IMG/VR virus record: IMGVR_UViG_3300046009_009524
Coordinates: 1 to 35,652 of that record
Direction: 5' to 3' (one strand)
From: a virus
Length of the DNA stretch: 35,652 nt
The notes below the pieces were generated by a model. That model worked only from the letters and a program-made list of their open reading frames with translations. It did no database searches and had not been told where the DNA came from. Below, piece by piece: positions 26,960 to 35,407 of this stretch (within the stretch, counting starts at the first letter, position 1; the number at the start of each line of letters is the position of its first letter). Both the position numbers and the translations under genes were made by a program.

Positions 26960-27701
26960 AAATTTTATTTAAATGCTGTTTTACTTCTTCATTAAATAAA
27001 TTAAAATCTAATTTGGTTGCTCCATGACCCCCACCATGATGTAATATTTTAACTTTTTTATTATTAAGTATTAATTCATTTTCTATTAATTGAATATCCA
27101 TCCAGCTATCCCAATGTGTATTATCTCCATATAAATTAGATACACCATAATAAACACTAGATTCTATTGGATCTATAATTTTAGTTTTCCAATCACTAGT
27201 CATAAGGTTTAAAACAGTTTGTTCTTGGAAAGGCATTTGATTTCCGAATTCAATATTATTTAACATCCACTGTTCTATAAATGCTTTACTTGTAACACCT
27301 ACTAACCCTGCATTCAGGTATTTTTGAGCATCTAGACCTGGGTTTGTTATAGGACTGTCTTTCCCTGCTCTGTTAAAATCATTATTGTTTCTAATTCCAA
27401 TTATATCATATTGTAAATTACTTTCATCTAACAATTCATCTAATTTTCCAACAATCATTGAATCAGCATCAAAATGAACTACCATATCATATTGCTCAAT
27501 CAACTGAGCTGTAACAAACGGATGAACTGTATTCCAATTAACATTAGGATGTATTTGAAAAAGTTCATTTAGTTGTTTATCTCCAAAACAGTAAAAATCA
27601 ATTTCTGGGTGGAAATATTGGGCTGATTTTACTAATTTATGAGTCCCAATAGAATAATACCAATCATCAGATACATGAGTACAAAATGCTATTCTAATCA
27701 T
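26943..27701 (-). CDS. GT8-like glycosyltransferase, 252 aa
   Basis: Start at ATG 27701 (MIRIAFCTHVSDDWYYSIG), overlapping the upstream stop as ATGA; an upstream TTG is rejected. HFDADSM supplies the DxD at 78-80, the hallmark of GT-A/GT8 enzymes, and LHHGGGHG near the C-terminus supplies the usual His/Gly-rich metal site. Donor unknown. Confidence 0.8.
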   Translation of the reverse strand: MIRIAFCTHVSDDWYYSIGTHKLVKSAQYFHPEIDFYCFGDKQLNELFQIHPNVNWNTVHPFVTAQLIEQYDMVVHFDADSMIVGKLDELLDESNLQYDIIGIRNNNDFNRAGKDSPITNPGLDAQKYLNAGLVGVTSKAFIEQWMLNNIEFGNQMPFQEQTVLNLMTSDWKTKIIDPIESSVYYGVSNLYGDNTHWDSWMDIQLIENELILNNKKVKILHHGGGHGATKLDFNLFNEEVKQHLNKIYEGNN

Positions 27702-28174
27702 CTTTTTAAATTTATATAACAAGGACCATTATAATTAAAACATTCATCTAATACTTGATTAATATTATTCATTTCAGGCCAATATGATTTAATGTTTTTA
27801 AATGAAGTTAACATCACATCTTTATCTTCTTCAGCCCAATGACTAAAACCATCATGTGAATAATCTCTATCTCTACCAGATCCAACTAATTTAATATTAA
27901 GTATTTCTTTATTAATATAGTTCCTAAGTAATTCAAAAGGACGATATAATAGAAATGGAGTAATTGAATATGCTATTGGTTTTTTACCTTCATAAGCAGC
28001 ACCAATACATAATCCAATCATTAATTGTTCTGATGCTCCACAATTAATGAAGTTATTTGGGTATTTTTCTTTAATATTATCAAACAGACCATAACCTAAA
28101 TCAGCAGTAATTAATAAAATAGAAGGATCTTGTTCTATCTTAGATTCTAAATATTTAACAAATGTTTTTCTCAT
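27698..28174 (-). CDS. transketolase-like pyrimidine-binding subunit
   Basis: 158 aa with the transketolase Pyr fold: ITADLGYGLFDNIKEKYPNN, the catalytic Glu49 in GASEQLMIGL, and a C-terminal GPCYINLKR. The C-terminal transketolase domain is missing. It pairs with the N-terminal subunit at 28866-29468, from which it is separated by an FkbM methyltransferase. The pair would bind thiamine diphosphate. Two-carbon transfer to build branched or unusual sugars is the likely role (inference). Confidence 0.85.
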   Translation of the reverse strand: MRKTFVKYLESKIEQDPSILLITADLGYGLFDNIKEKYPNNFINCGASEQLMIGLCIGAAYEGKKPIAYSITPFLLYRPFELLRNYINKEILNIKLVGSGRDRDYSHDGFSHWAEEDKDVMLTSFKNIKSYWPEMNNINQVLDECFNYNGPCYINLKR

Positions 28175-28857
28175 TATTTATAACAATATAATATATCAAC
28201 ACTAACTAATTCAGTATTCCAACCAATATATTTAAAAATATCTTGATAGTATTCTCTATGTTCCCCATATGTTTTACCATTAATTTGATGAAACTCAATA
28301 AAGAACTTTTTAACATATTTATTTAATGTTTCTATGTTTTCTTTAGATAAAAATTTAATTTCAGAACCTTCAATATCAATCTTAATAAAATCAATATGGT
28401 CTAAATCATATAAATCAATAATATCTTTTAATGTATATGTTTCAACTTGAATTTCAATACCTCCTTTTTCATTCATTAATGAATTTTCAGTAGAATCTGA
28501 TAGTACATAGAACGAAGTTGTTTCTCGTTTATCTGAAATGGCTCCTTGAAGTCTATAAATATTTGGGATATCTTTTGTAAAGTATTCTAATATATTAAAA
28601 TGGCTAGGAGTTGGTTCTACTGAAATTATTTTATCAGCATATGGAGAAAAATGCATTGACACTAATCCAATATTTGCTCCTAAGTCTATAATAATTTTAT
28701 CATCAGGTGTTACAAATTGATCATAATAATTACTATTTGTTTGTTTTAAAATAGGTTCTGTGCAACTTTGAATATTATTAAAATGTGATTCAATATGTAA
28801 TGGAGAAATATCAAGATTTTTGATTTTACCATTTATTAATTTTAATTCTTTTATCAT
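28174..28857 (-). CDS. FkbM-type SAM methyltransferase
   Basis: 227 aa. DLGANIGLVSMHFSPYAD at 58-75 is the SAM-binding motif I, with Glu81 in the VEPTPSHFN segment typical of FkbM. The C-terminal LDHIDFIKIDIEGSEIKFLS is the family-defining IDIEG motif. FkbM enzymes O-methylate sugars and polyketides. TAATG overlap with the transketolase Pyr subunit. Confidence 0.9.
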   Translation of the reverse strand: MIKELKLINGKIKNLDISPLHIESHFNNIQSCTEPILKQTNSNYYDQFVTPDDKIIIDLGANIGLVSMHFSPYADKIISVEPTPSHFNILEYFTKDIPNIYRLQGAISDKRETTSFYVLSDSTENSLMNEKGGIEIQVETYTLKDIIDLYDLDHIDFIKIDIEGSEIKFLSKENIETLNKYVKKFFIEFHQINGKTYGEHREYYQDIFKYIGWNTELVSVDILYCYK

Positions 28858-28865
28858 ATATTTTT

Positions 28866-29468
28866 TTATTTTATTACAGTATAATGAGCTGCTAGTGGTG
28901 TTTCAAATTTAATAACTTCATTAACATCAGTATAATGGATATTTATACTTGGTAAAAATACTTTTAATTTATTAGTTAATTTTTCTACATCAACTTGTTT
29001 ATAAGCAGCCCAACCATTAATGTTAGCATGTATTTCTATATTAGATAAGTTTTCATCATCAATAAAGCGTAAAGCTTCCCATATACTACCTTCAGCACAT
29101 TCACCATCAGATATTAAACAATATACTTTTATATTAGGATTAGCTAATGCTATTCCAGTAGCTATTGTTATTCCTAATCCTAAACTACCTGTAGAAACAT
29201 CTATAAAATTCTCTAAATCTCTTTCAGGATGAATTCCATGAGTTTCAAGTAAATACTCAGCATCAACCCCATAAAAATGTTCTAACACAACATATAAAGC
29301 TAACCCAGCATGTCCACTTGATAGTACAAATTTATCTTCAGGTTTTTTCTTATTATATATTTCATAGATTATTGGTAAAGCTGTAAAACAACTACCTAAA
29401 TGAGATAAATTATGTTTAACACTTATCTCTAATATTCTTTTATTTAATTTATCTATATTTTTTTTCAT
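28866..29468 (-). CDS. transketolase-like thiamine-diphosphate subunit
   Basis: 200 aa, N-terminal TPP domain. H23 (SHLGS), H53 (SSGHAG), TGSLGLGITIATGIAL, and the SDGE motif at 120-123 with N149/N151 correspond to the GDG-(N) TPP/Mg site with S for the first G. It is shorter than bacterial TK N-domains. Works with the subunit at 27698-28174. Confidence 0.85.
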   Translation of the reverse strand: MKKNIDKLNKRILEISVKHNLSHLGSCFTALPIIYEIYNKKKPEDKFVLSSGHAGLALYVVLEHFYGVDAEYLLETHGIHPERDLENFIDVSTGSLGLGITIATGIALANPNIKVYCLISDGECAEGSIWEALRFIDDENLSNIEIHANINGWAAYKQVDVEKLTNKLKVFLPSINIHYTDVNEVIKFETPLAAHYTVIK

Positions 29469-30282: not shown

Positions 30283-30767
30283 TTTTCAGCCATTACCATA
30301 AAAGCATTATTTAAATCTACTTGAGATGTAAATATATTATTATATTTTTTATCTTCTAAATAATCTTTAAGAATTATTGGAGAGAAAATATTTAAATGTT
30401 TTCTGTTATTCCATGGTCTCCAATATTCTTGAGAATAATCAGGAAGATATAAAAATAATACTCCACCTATTTTTAATTTACTTGTCCAATAATCTAAAAC
30501 ATCAACCCAATTATATAAATGTTCTAAACAATGAGATGAAAAAATATAATCTAAATTATCATATGGAAAATTTAAAGCATCATATTCATTAATTGCTGGA
30601 TCTACGGGGAGTGATCCTGGAAAGCTCCATTCTAATCTATTACATCCTATATCTACCCCTTCACCTACACATACATGTTTCGCATAAGGTATAGCGAATT
30701 GAGCTGCGTTTCCTTGTGATTGGAATATTGGATATTTGTTTTTTTTATATTCTATAATATTAATCAT
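30279..30767 (-). CDS. SAM-dependent methyltransferase, 162 aa
   Basis: EGVDIGC (36-42) is SAM motif I and SSHCLEHL (77-84) matches the post-motif of methyltransferase 11-type enzymes. Smaller than most. Likely modifies a glycan or nucleotide sugar; the substrate is unknown. ATG at 30767. Confidence 0.8.
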   Translation of the reverse strand: MINIIEYKKNKYPIFQSQGNAAQFAIPYAKHVCVGEGVDIGCNRLEWSFPGSLPVDPAINEYDALNFPYDNLDYIFSSHCLEHLYNWVDVLDYWTSKLKIGGVLFLYLPDYSQEYWRPWNNRKHLNIFSPIILKDYLEDKKYNNIFTSQVDLNNAFMVMAEK

Positions 30768-30770
30768 ATT

Positions 30771-30995
30771 TTATATTGTGTTGTAAAAATTATTTTGTTT
30801 TTCTTGTCTTTCTATTGTTTTTGGATGGAGTAAACTTAATTCGTCCTCTGCTGGTATAACTCCAAATTTTTTATAACCTTCAATTACCTCATGAACTGCA
30901 TTTCTCCATTTAACATCTGGAGTGTTTTTATAAATTCTAGTTTGGTAATCACTCCAATTAATTATTGGGAGATAATATTTTATTTTTTTCTTCAT
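30771..30995 (-). CDS. C-terminal fragment of a split glycosyltransferase
   Basis: 74 aa beginning MKKKIKYYLPIINWSDYQT, a stretch I associate with the C-terminal region of GT2-type enzymes (acceptor side, RIYKN and HEVIEGY), ending PKTIERQEKQNNFYNTI. It continues from the N-terminal half at 31651-32175, from which it is separated by a GIY-YIG endonuclease gene that overlaps its start by 38 nt. Whether the two halves assemble is unknown. Confidence 0.7.
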   Translation of the reverse strand: MKKKIKYYLPIINWSDYQTRIYKNTPDVKWRNAVHEVIEGYKKFGVIPAEDELSLLHPKTIERQEKQNNFYNTI

Positions 30996-31635
30996 ATAAT
31001 AACTTATTTAATGTATTATTACCTATTTTTAATTTTTTCATAGCTTCTGTTTTACTATTATAAGTGATACCTTTTATAGTTACTCTAATAGCTCCTCCAC
31101 CACCTGTTCTTTTTTTATATTGTTTTCTTTTATATTCTTCTATTTTTAAAGGTATAGGTAAAGTTTTATATCTCCAAATATAACCACCACTTGTAGGTTG
31201 GTTTCCTTTACATACAGCTGATATTCCATTATAATCTGTAAGGTTTAATTTTTCTAAAGCTTCAATTCCACTACCCCATTCTTTTATAAAATTTCCCTTT
31301 AAATCATATTGAAGGATTGGTTTATAATTAACTCTTTTCCAATCATATTTACCTCCTTTAGTTAAATTAACTCCTTCATTTATGGTATTGTAAAAATTAA
31401 TATAATATTCTTCTTTTAAATCTAATTCTTCTAATGTACAATATTCTATTATTCTTCTATCAAATCTATTATCAAAATGATCATACCCAAATAAGGAAAT
31501 AAATCTTTTTAAAATTTTACTTCCTGTTCTATAAGTTTTGTCTCTACCATTGGTTTTACCAACATATATAATTTTATTTTTTATTTTATCAAAAAAACAA
31601 TAAATGTAAGGATTAATAAATTCACCAGATTTCAT
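30958..31635 (-). CDS. GIY-YIG homing endonuclease interrupting a glycosyltransferase
   Basis: 225 aa. Start at ATG 31635 (MKSGEFINPYIYCFFDKIKN); a TTG two codons up is rejected. GIY-YIG catalytic strands are YIY (10-12) and IIYVGKT; a catalytic-type Arg, EY and N follow. Then a NUMOD1 unit (ILQYDLKGNFIKEW...GGYIWRYK) and a second repeat-like DNA-binding HTH (IRVTIKGITYNSKTEAMKKL). It sits exactly between two halves of a glycosyltransferase. Confidence 0.85.
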   Translation of the reverse strand: MKSGEFINPYIYCFFDKIKNKIIYVGKTNGRDKTYRTGSKILKRFISLFGYDHFDNRFDRRIIEYCTLEELDLKEEYYINFYNTINEGVNLTKGGKYDWKRVNYKPILQYDLKGNFIKEWGSGIEALEKLNLTDYNGISAVCKGNQPTSGGYIWRYKTLPIPLKIEEYKRKQYKKRTGGGGAIRVTIKGITYNSKTEAMKKLKIGNNTLNKLLYEEKNKILSPNN

Positions 31636-31650
31636 ATTCAATAATAAATA

Positions 31651-32175
31651 TCAGGAGATTTCATTTTCTTCAATAATTAGATTATATTTTTTTAATAAAT
31701 TATATTCATCTAAATCTTGAGGATTATTTAAATCTAATTCTTTTTCTCCTATTTGAGATTCCAATTTACTAATACTCCAACCCCATTTTTGTATATGTTC
31801 CTGAGTGATACCACTTACGGTATTAATTCGAGGAACATAATACATTTCAATTTCTGGGTTATTTTCTAGTAAATTTGGTAATAAATCAAGTAATTCTGGA
31901 GATGGGATTTCATCTGCATCTATTTGGAATATAAAATCTCCTGAACAATGGTTTGCTAGTTCATTTTTATATGATGCAAAATCTTTATTTAAGGGATAAA
32001 ACCAATGTTTTATTCCTCTACCAATAATTACACTCAATACATCATCAGCATAATTATCTTTATCAATTTGAATTACTATTTCGTAGTCAGGGTGTAAAGC
32101 CCTTTCTTGGAGGTAATCCAATAGGGCTTTTAACTCCTCAACTTCATTACATACAGTTATAGCTAAACTTATCAT
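31651..32175 (-). CDS. N-terminal half of a split GT2 glycosyltransferase
   Basis: Start ATG 32175 in TAATG overlap with the zinc-ribbon gene; 174 aa. MISLAITVCNEVEELKALLD is the GT2 start and QIDADEIPSPEL the DxD region. The protein ends abruptly at YNLIIEENEIS just where the endonuclease gene begins; the continuation (KIKYYLPIINW) is at 30771-30995. The gene is thus interrupted. Confidence 0.85.
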   Translation of the reverse strand: MISLAITVCNEVEELKALLDYLQERALHPDYEIVIQIDKDNYADDVLSVIIGRGIKHWFYPLNKDFASYKNELANHCSGDFIFQIDADEIPSPELLDLLPNLLENNPEIEMYYVPRINTVSGITQEHIQKWGWSISKLESQIGEKELDLNNPQDLDEYNLLKKYNLIIEENEIS

Positions 32176-32633
32176 TATGGTAATACTCCTATATAGCTTA
32201 AACAATCCATAAATTCACGTTCAGGATATTCTTTTAGTGTAGTCATGTCCATTCTTCTTTCATAATATTCACCTTGTTTACCTGGGATTGGGTATTTTTC
32301 TTTTTCTTCTTCCTTAACAGGAACAGCTTTTACAGCTGCCCAATTCCATTGTTCTTTAGAAGAACCATTAGCAAATACCATTCCTTGAGTAGGAACATTT
32401 ATTGTAGTTGGCATCCATATTTTTCCTTCTTCATCAGTGAAAAGTAAATCCTTATAAAGTTCAGGTAAAATTGAAAGTTGTTCTTCATAAAAAGCTTCAC
32501 CTTCTTTCATTAATGAATTAGTTTGAAAACCACACGAAAAACAAAACTGAGTAGAGATATTTTCGTTGACTTCATCTACATAATTGGCATCTCCTCCACA
32601 TCGAGGACATATTGTTAATTTATCAAAATTCAT
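32175..32633 (-). CDS. zinc-ribbon protein, 152 aa
   Basis: Begins with CPRCGG and CFSCGF (residues 9-34), a four-Cys zinc ribbon, then a 110-aa acidic domain with no recognised fold (GKIWMPTTINVPTQGMVF, WNWAAVKAVPV). Position at the head of the GT2 gene suggests it is functionally linked. No family assigned. Confidence 0.7.
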   Translation of the reverse strand: MNFDKLTICPRCGGDANYVDEVNENISTQFCFSCGFQTNSLMKEGEAFYEEQLSILPELYKDLLFTDEEGKIWMPTTINVPTQGMVFANGSSKEQWNWAAVKAVPVKEEEKEKYPIPGKQGEYYERRMDMTTLKEYPEREFMDCLSYIGVLP

Positions 32634-32647
32634 ATTATTAAATGTAA

Positions 32648-33328
32648 TTAATTATTTTTATATTTCCAAATATACCCCCCAGATGTTTTAGCTCTGTTTT
32701 TAAGGCATTCCGTTATTCCTTTAATTTTTAATTCTTTTTTAGCTTCTTGAGATGTAGGCCATTCTTTAATAAAATTTCCTTCCAAATCATACTGAAGGAT
32801 AGGTTTACCTATTTTATATTTTTGTTCTGGGGTCCATGTTTTTCCTTTATTAGGGGATGTTCTTCCTTTAAGTTTAATACTTTGTTTTAATTTAGATTCT
32901 TCAGAATGTTTCATACCAATATGAATTTTAGATACCTTTTCTCCAAATCCTTCAGGTTTGGGTTTTGAATTAGCTTTACCTATTTTTTTATTTCTTTCTT
33001 CATTTTTTATTTTATCAAAAATAATTTTTAATTCTTCAGCTGTTTTATTTTCAAATGGGTTTTTTCCTCGTTTTCTAACATCAGCTAAATTATAAAATTT
33101 TTTATCATTTAAAGCATTAAAATAATCTATCCAGTATGTTTCTCTTTTTTCTAATTCAGTAATAGTAGAACATGTTTCTAAAATTTCTTTTTTAAAATTT
33201 TTTCTACCATATTTCTTAATAGCTTTTATAATTAGGCTACCACTTCCTAAATAGTTTGGATTATTTTTAGTATCCATTCCTATATATTTTTTACCATTAA
33301 TAAGATTTGTTATCAAATATACTACCAT
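32648..33328 (-). CDS. GIY-YIG homing endonuclease with NUMOD3 and NUMOD1
   Basis: Start at ATG 33328 (MVVYLITNLINGKKYIGMDT); an upstream GTG adds eight residues. GIY-YIG strands VYLITN and KKYIGMD, a catalytic E in ELEKRETYWIDY, NUMOD3 units (HSEESKLKQSIKLKGR), and a C-terminal NUMOD1 (ILQYDLEGNFIKEW...GGYIWKYK). Free-standing between the GT4 and zinc-ribbon genes. Confidence 0.85.
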   Translation of the reverse strand: MVVYLITNLINGKKYIGMDTKNNPNYLGSGSLIIKAIKKYGRKNFKKEILETCSTITELEKRETYWIDYFNALNDKKFYNLADVRKRGKNPFENKTAEELKIIFDKIKNEERNKKIGKANSKPKPEGFGEKVSKIHIGMKHSEESKLKQSIKLKGRTSPNKGKTWTPEQKYKIGKPILQYDLEGNFIKEWPTSQEAKKELKIKGITECLKNRAKTSGGYIWKYKNN

Positions 33329-33375
33329 ATTTTTTATTATAAATATGTGCACGGTGCTGTAAAAATATTTTATTT

Positions 33376-34715: not shown

Positions 34716-35363
34716 TTAAATTTTTTTATGTTTCCAAATATAACCATAAGCTGTTTTTTGTCTTCCATTAACACAAGCACCAACAAATCCATAGTCAGGG
34801 TGTTTTGATATTTCAGCAACACTTTCCCACTCTTTTACAAAATTACCATCTAAAGTATATTGTATAACTGATTTTGTTCTCCAGGGCATTTTTCTATCTT
34901 TTAAGGATGAAGATATTTTATCACCCCATGTTATTTCTCTTCCAGTATTAGATTTACTTATTTTTTGTTTCCATTCTTCAGTATACATAGAATGACCTAT
35001 CATGGATTTGGATTTTTTGTCTCGTGTTTCTTTAGATTGTTTTTTTCCAGTTAACATTTGAGAATATTCAGTTTTTAATCTTTCATATACTCTTGAACCA
35101 ATAACATATGTTTTTTCTTTAACTTTTTGTTTTCCTATAGCCATTAAAAATAAAGCATGTTTAAGTTTATTTTCATTAGGATGTATTTCACAAAGCAGCA
35201 TATGACATAAAAAATGTTCCCTAGCTGTTAATTCTACAAGGTTATTTTTATCATTATTACCTCCTAGACATTTTGGAACAATGTGATGTTTTTCTTTGTA
35301 GCCTTCTAACATTCGGGTTTTGGCTTTTTCTATTATTTGGTTGTATATTTTTTGATAATCCAT
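34716..35363 (-). CDS. HNH homing endonuclease with NUMOD domains
   Basis: 215 aa. The HNH core is HHIVPKCLGGNNDKNNLVEL followed by AREHFLCHMLL (residues about 25-58). NUMOD3 units follow (GKKQSKETRDKKSKS, WKQKISKSNTG) and a C-terminal NUMOD1 (VIQYTLDGNFVKEW...GYIWKHKK), shared with the two GIY-YIG enzymes. Intergenic between the glycosyltransferase and the 2H protein. Confidence 0.88.
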   Translation of the reverse strand: MDYQKIYNQIIEKAKTRMLEGYKEKHHIVPKCLGGNNDKNNLVELTAREHFLCHMLLCEIHPNENKLKHALFLMAIGKQKVKEKTYVIGSRVYERLKTEYSQMLTGKKQSKETRDKKSKSMIGHSMYTEEWKQKISKSNTGREITWGDKISSSLKDRKMPWRTKSVIQYTLDGNFVKEWESVAEISKHPDYGFVGACVNGRQKTAYGYIWKHKKI

Positions 35364-35407
35364 TTGACACTTATTTTATCATACATATGTATAAGTATCA
35401 AAAGGAT

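Follow-up and report, generated by a model that had tools for sequence, protein, structure and literature searches.

A homing cassette probably divides a viral GT2 glycosyltransferase into a two-chain enzyme at a recurrently broken site

In the 35,652-nt viral DNA analyzed here (the window), a GT2 glycosyltransferase gene has probably been split by a homing cassette into two separately translated polypeptides that would together form a two-chain enzyme. The earlier note had described the gene as divided into two reading frames by a GIY-YIG endonuclease, and the open reading frames agree with this, as do the matches to Glycos_transf_2 and to a homing endonuclease. All three genes lie on the minus strand. 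The N-terminal half (31651..32175; ATG 32175, TGA 31651; 174 aa) comprises the nucleotide-binding, DxD-containing part and matches Pfam PF00535 Glycos_transf_2 (E 1.7e-9). Fifteen nucleotides separate its stop from the start of the endonuclease gene (30958..31635; ATG 31635, stop 30958; 225 aa). The C-terminal half (30771..30995; 74 aa), identified as an open reading frame, by its continuity with the N-half in L002 and other contigs and by its retained VHE and HPK..Q motifs, has its own ATG at 30995, as had been noted. The previously described 38-nt overlap between the 3' end of the endonuclease gene and the 5' end of the C-half proved exact (30958..30995, minus strand, from the reading frames) and could possibly couple translation of the two. 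In other cassettes this junction is an overlap of 10-50 nt or a gap of 16-19 nt. Because a second contig (L001) repeats the locus base for base (100% over 6,179 nt), a one-off assembly error is unlikely. The assignment to the GT-A/GT2 class draws on the PF00535 profile, on the DxD motif and on the match of an uninterrupted relative to the SunS, TarS and TarP structures. By what is known of the family, neither half should be a complete enzyme, because the DxD part is in the N-half and the VHE motif in the C-half. We infer that the C-half is translated from its internal ATG and that the two chains would assemble into an active enzyme. The C-half ATG of the window has no evident Shine-Dalgarno sequence ahead of it; the C-half of one other split (L282) is preceded by GAGGAGG. 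A promoter and terminator consensus scan of the split locus revealed no excess over chance.

The protein encoded between the halves has the motif, the catalytic Glu and Asn, and the NUMOD domain of a GIY-YIG homing endonuclease. It matches PHROG 314 (homing endonuclease, E 1e-10) and the NUMOD1 DNA-binding domain (E 1e-5), and the YIY..YVG motif, E75/E76 and N90 are invariant among four relatives in an alignment with L164, L234 and L237. The Pfam GIY-YIG model itself was not among the reported matches of this protein, and no solved structure matching it by sequence was found.

Searching IMG/VR with the N-half as query gave 80 loci, the majority of them with the gene in a single uninterrupted frame. 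The uninterrupted genes follow the pattern ...EHIQKWGW, 7 or 8 residues, then N(W/F/Y)PDYQxR...VHE...HPKxIxxQ..QN.FYNT, and the two halves form a single open frame in L002 and in more than 50 other viral contigs. L002 is the closest uninterrupted allele, and thus the homologue that the earlier note had proposed to seek: its DNA is identical to the window at 96% of positions in the N flank and 91% in the C flank, its C-terminal part corresponds to the window C-half, and the two are sisters in a flank-only tree (support 100/99). As L002 holds both parts in one frame, the case of two unrelated genes is excluded. Mapping of the insertion against this allele shows that RYENERV of L002 is exchanged in the window for SISKLESQIGEKELDLNNPQDLDEYNLLKKYNLIIEENEIS and a stop codon, the endonuclease, and then MKKKIKYYLPII. 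From a three-way alignment and its breakpoints, which fall at the conserved codons KWGW and NWxDY, we delimited a mobile cassette of 829 nt (30946..31774, minus strand) that consists of about 40 linker codons, the endonuclease and about 15 codons of the C-half head, and that takes the place of the 7-residue loop of an L002-type allele. The same DNA alignment marks the N-half residues past KWGW (SISKLES...EENEIS) as cassette-derived. The inserted unit is thus larger than the endonuclease, which the earlier note had taking up the whole interval: L002-type alleles have neither the tail of the N-half, SISKLES...LIIEE, nor the head of the C-half, KIKYYLPII, and both are foreign to them. The GAAGAAAA stretch said to be common to both junctions is uninformative, the word occurring 13 times in the window against 5.95 expected.

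The 829-nt block recurs in L034 with 4 mismatches. With 99.5% identity between the two cassettes but only 58% and 62% between the GT2 sequences of L034 and the window on either side of them, the comparison indicates that the cassette was transferred recently, with linked flanks, between distant alleles. The flank tree assigns L034, which has a long branch there, to a starred clade other than that of the window. Transfer with linked flanks is the pattern expected of homing with co-conversion, which would have been the route here, and the window, L002 and L034 are together consistent with homing by cutting of the insert-less allele.

Profile searches uncovered a class of long-linker GT2s, with about six uninterrupted alleles (L216, L217/L218, L220, L221, L222/L223, L271 and L278). 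The same break is present in 16 split contigs (one entry per listed split member, with pairs such as window/L001 counted once; about 14 other distinct contigs beside the window). It lies no more than a few codons from LIIEE / K(V/I)K(V/I)KYY, and in all split members the sequence before it resembles ...LI(I/V)EE and the sequence after it K(V/I)K(V/I)KYY. At least five kinds of nuclease occupy it: two GIY-YIG, two HNH and one Vsr-like. The first GIY-YIG group is found in window/L001, L034, L164/L165, L234 and L237, and another GIY-YIG in L231; HNH nucleases of PHROG 655 are found in L224 and L229, and another HNH-like group (PHROG 5104) in L035, L097 and L285/L286. L282 carries the Vsr-like domain, a Pfam match at E 0.001 that does not reach the cut-off, together with an HNH endonuclease PHROG match. 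Four splits (L037, L219, L232/L233 and L283/L284) have no nuclease, and their gaps measure 71, 72, 136 and ~150 nt. The gap in L232 contains an eroded relic of an endonuclease of the L237-type GIY-YIG group (its score of 77 exceeds those of all 100 shuffles, which reach 60 at most), and that in L037 has a weaker colinear similarity to L231, with 1 of 100 shuffles scoring as high. These nuclease-less splits, and the relic in L232, argue that the split persists as nucleases are gained and lost. The 45 nt ahead of the C-half ATG are 87% identical between L224 (HNH) and L231 (GIY-YIG), which suggests nuclease exchange inside an already split gene. Some nucleases may thus have replaced one another after the gene was split, so that the nuclease kinds may not each represent an independent insertion. 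The published phage relatives, Flavobacterium phage immuto and Microcystis phage Mel-JY01, all have the short loop, and immuto carries its uninterrupted gene in a similar glycan cluster. A scan of cellular genomes for the long linker gave matches to the conserved C-terminal part only.

The split gene belongs to a glycan cluster that also encodes a GT1, a zinc-ribbon-like protein, a methyltransferase, an NAD-epimerase, transketolase halves, an FkbM methyltransferase and a weak GT8 match. The N-terminal and pyrimidine-binding domains of the transketolase are separate reading frames (28866-29468 and 27698-28174, both minus strand), with the FkbM methyltransferase gene (28174-28857) between them; this pair is possibly a natural two-subunit transketolase. 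Two more homing endonuclease genes lie by the glycan genes, a GIY-YIG/NUMOD3 at 32648-33352 and an HNH at 34716-35363 (both minus strand). L002 lacks these as well, and the two alleles differ by three nuclease insertions in ~5 kb. The window nuclease genes have in common a stretch of ~40-49 nt with 79-90% identity. At many loci the motif TATTTATAATAAA lies directly upstream of homing endonuclease genes, of GIY-YIG as well as HNH families. Of the endonuclease genes that have a leader, 16 of 48 are preceded by it with at most one mismatch, versus 5 of 302 other genes, and the window copies at 33333-33345, 35375-35387 and ~31638-31650 (all minus strand) have 0, 2 and 3 mismatches, respectively. 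The motif looks like a promoter, perhaps a late one.

We next consider whether the halves are kept. In all 16 splits the C-half ATG coincides with the first lysines of the hairpin (the conserved head) or precedes them by a few residues, and H..K...Q is retained; (V/L/I)HE is retained in 15. The remaining two frames over this stretch contain 4-12 stops, and split C-halves are mostly 74-80 codons long. C-half dN/dS is 0.07-0.19 for split-intact pairs with finite values and 0.06-0.17 for intact pairs, pairwise estimates over whole branches that mix pre- and post-split time, the window insertion being recent. Linker codons of split cassettes likewise change mostly at silent sites (median pN/pS 0.27, 45 pairs). 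The conserved starts and motifs, the low dN/dS and the decay of the L232 nuclease beside two halves that are still open all count against inactivation of the GT2 by the insertion, in which case the halves would be decaying pseudogene pieces, tolerated since glycan genes are dispensable. We consider this improbable, with the recency of the window insertion (99.5% identity to L034), the long end branches of some split rows (0.89 in L034, 0.81 in L237, 0.57 in L164) and the loss of the E of VHE in L237 speaking for it. The L237 C-half (L237:3001-3837), in which VHE has become VHG, continues in frame into a methyltransferase-like protein encoded downstream. Because of this contig and the long branches, GT2 function may be relaxed in some split lineages. 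The nuclease-less splits are a stronger argument for use of the halves than is dN/dS. One polypeptide could also result if the gap were removed, whether by an intron that escaped recognition, by a split intein or by bypassing ribosomes. Precedents are the bypass of T4 gene 60 and the fractured genes reported along with split inteins and a novel endonuclease family. Here such removal is very improbable. The earlier note had seen no room for a group I intron core, and this was borne out: 15 nt lie outside the reading frames at the 5' side, the genes overlap at the 3' side, and Rfam gave no match for a catalytic core, with no family at window positions 30600-32300 even at E<=5 and no intron family in 12 relatives. 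The gaps of the nuclease-less splits (71, 72, 136 and ~150 nt) are too small for such a core. They also differ in length, with no common frame relation and no common bypass element, and ribosomal bypassing was rejected on these grounds. A split intein or fractured gene was rejected as well: an intein would need more than the ~40+10 linker residues, neither half matches an intein family, and the same residues are present in uninterrupted proteins, where they are predicted to be folded structure.

The position of the break was examined in an AlphaFold2 model of the uninterrupted long-linker protein L216 (50 aligned sequences; pLDDT 96.4, pTM 0.91). The linker is modeled as a small subdomain with a strand (148-151), a helix (158-169) and a hairpin (173-175/179-182), and the break maps to residues 176-178, the turn between the two hairpin strands. 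As the turn of an inserted subdomain, it would lie on the protein surface. In the model of short-loop L002 (pLDDT 93.3) the same helix (125-131) is joined directly to the strand (139-151). Foldseek grouped the fold with the GT2 enzymes SunS, TarS and TarP. The long linker could instead be a mobile element's scar, the uninterrupted long-linker GT2s being re-fused split descendants and not ancestors, an account that concerns origin only and is compatible with a working two-chain enzyme. Long and short forms do alternate on the flank tree, with 12 changes, and L222 reads EETDTMGKVKIKYY, like the C-half start MxKVKIKYY inside one frame. However, the uninterrupted long linkers (L216, L220, L221, L222, L271 and L278) are diverse and most have no embedded Met, and the linker folds confidently in the model; we think re-fusion unlikely as the general origin. 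The uninterrupted long-linker gene at L222:2596-3339, with an internal MGKVKIKYY that resembles a split C-half start, may itself be a re-fused split gene.

In the reading we prefer, that of a two-chain enzyme derived from a long-linker ancestor, an endonuclease would first have settled in the hairpin turn of the surface beta-hairpin of a long-linker GT2. The ends would part at this turn with the fold undisturbed, and both halves could stay functional as a non-covalent two-chain enzyme. The cassette would then be a GIY-YIG endonuclease between exon pieces of a long-linker allele. Its endonuclease would cut insert-less GT2 alleles near conserved codons, with the cleavage site presumably close to KWGW / NWxDYQ, and repair would copy the endonuclease plus its linker flanks by co-conversion. 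In the window, a short-loop allele would have been converted in this way, with RYENERV giving way to a 40-residue subdomain broken at its hairpin. Splitting of the GT2 is apparently tolerated, and the break itself appears to travel between phages. More tentatively, at somewhat below even chances, we propose that the cassette is a portable split module whose break-tolerant linker hairpin lets one homing event make a working two-chain enzyme from a single-chain GT2 with a short loop, and that this joint has been used repeatedly by unrelated nucleases.

The likeness to the split nrdA of Aeromonas phage Aeh1, drawn earlier, is an apt comparison. Insertion of mobE splits that gene and the enzyme is active (Friedrich et al. 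2007, reviewed in PMC2988022). In both cases a homing endonuclease gene with no intron interrupts the gene of an enzyme, leaving two frames with no later rejoining; the window differs in its GT2 host gene, its GIY-YIG nuclease, the recurrent same-site splits with different nucleases and the cassette-borne linker, and its two-chain enzyme is a putative one. The gene 43 (43A/43B) DNA polymerase halves of Aeromonas phages 25 and 44RR co-purify as an active enzyme, and the split occurs with a Seg endonuclease in phage 25 and without one in 44RR (PMC2988022). The GT2 splits likewise occur with and without a nuclease (the latter in L037, L219, L232 and L283), but they involve five or more kinds of nuclease, and the split in the window has a nearly identical sister allele in which the gene is intact. 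Insertion of mobA into the T4 gene 60 topoisomerase gave separate coding regions from a once single gene (PMC2988022), a division by an endonuclease that the GT2 resembles, with another host gene and nuclease. The GT2, whose C-half has its own conserved ATG, has no counterpart to the 50-nt ribosomal bypass of T4 gene 60. Fractured genes, reportedly the subject of a 2009 study along with split inteins and a novel endonuclease family, also consist of two gene parts with a free-standing endonuclease between them, and L282 has a Vsr-like nuclease; unlike them, the GT2 has no intein halves, its linker being too short and present in uninterrupted proteins. No account of a split glycosyltransferase in a phage turned up in the literature that was searched. 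The GT2 split is the same kind of event as those of Aeh1 nrdA and 43A/43B; it differs from them in how many kinds of nuclease occupy a single site, in the before/after pair, and in that the cassette brings along the part of the host enzyme in which it sits.

To our knowledge, few enzymes split by homing endonucleases are documented, each studied singly. Here one gene family offers uninterrupted short alleles, uninterrupted long alleles, alleles split with a nuclease of at least five kinds and alleles split without one, with a near-identical before/after pair (L002 and the window) at hand. This allele set makes it testable how selfish nucleases can enter a gene and yet not destroy it, and whether flanks acquired by co-conversion are of help in providing a tolerant break point. 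It is also a catalogue, made by nature, of the sites at which a GT-A glycosyltransferase can be split.
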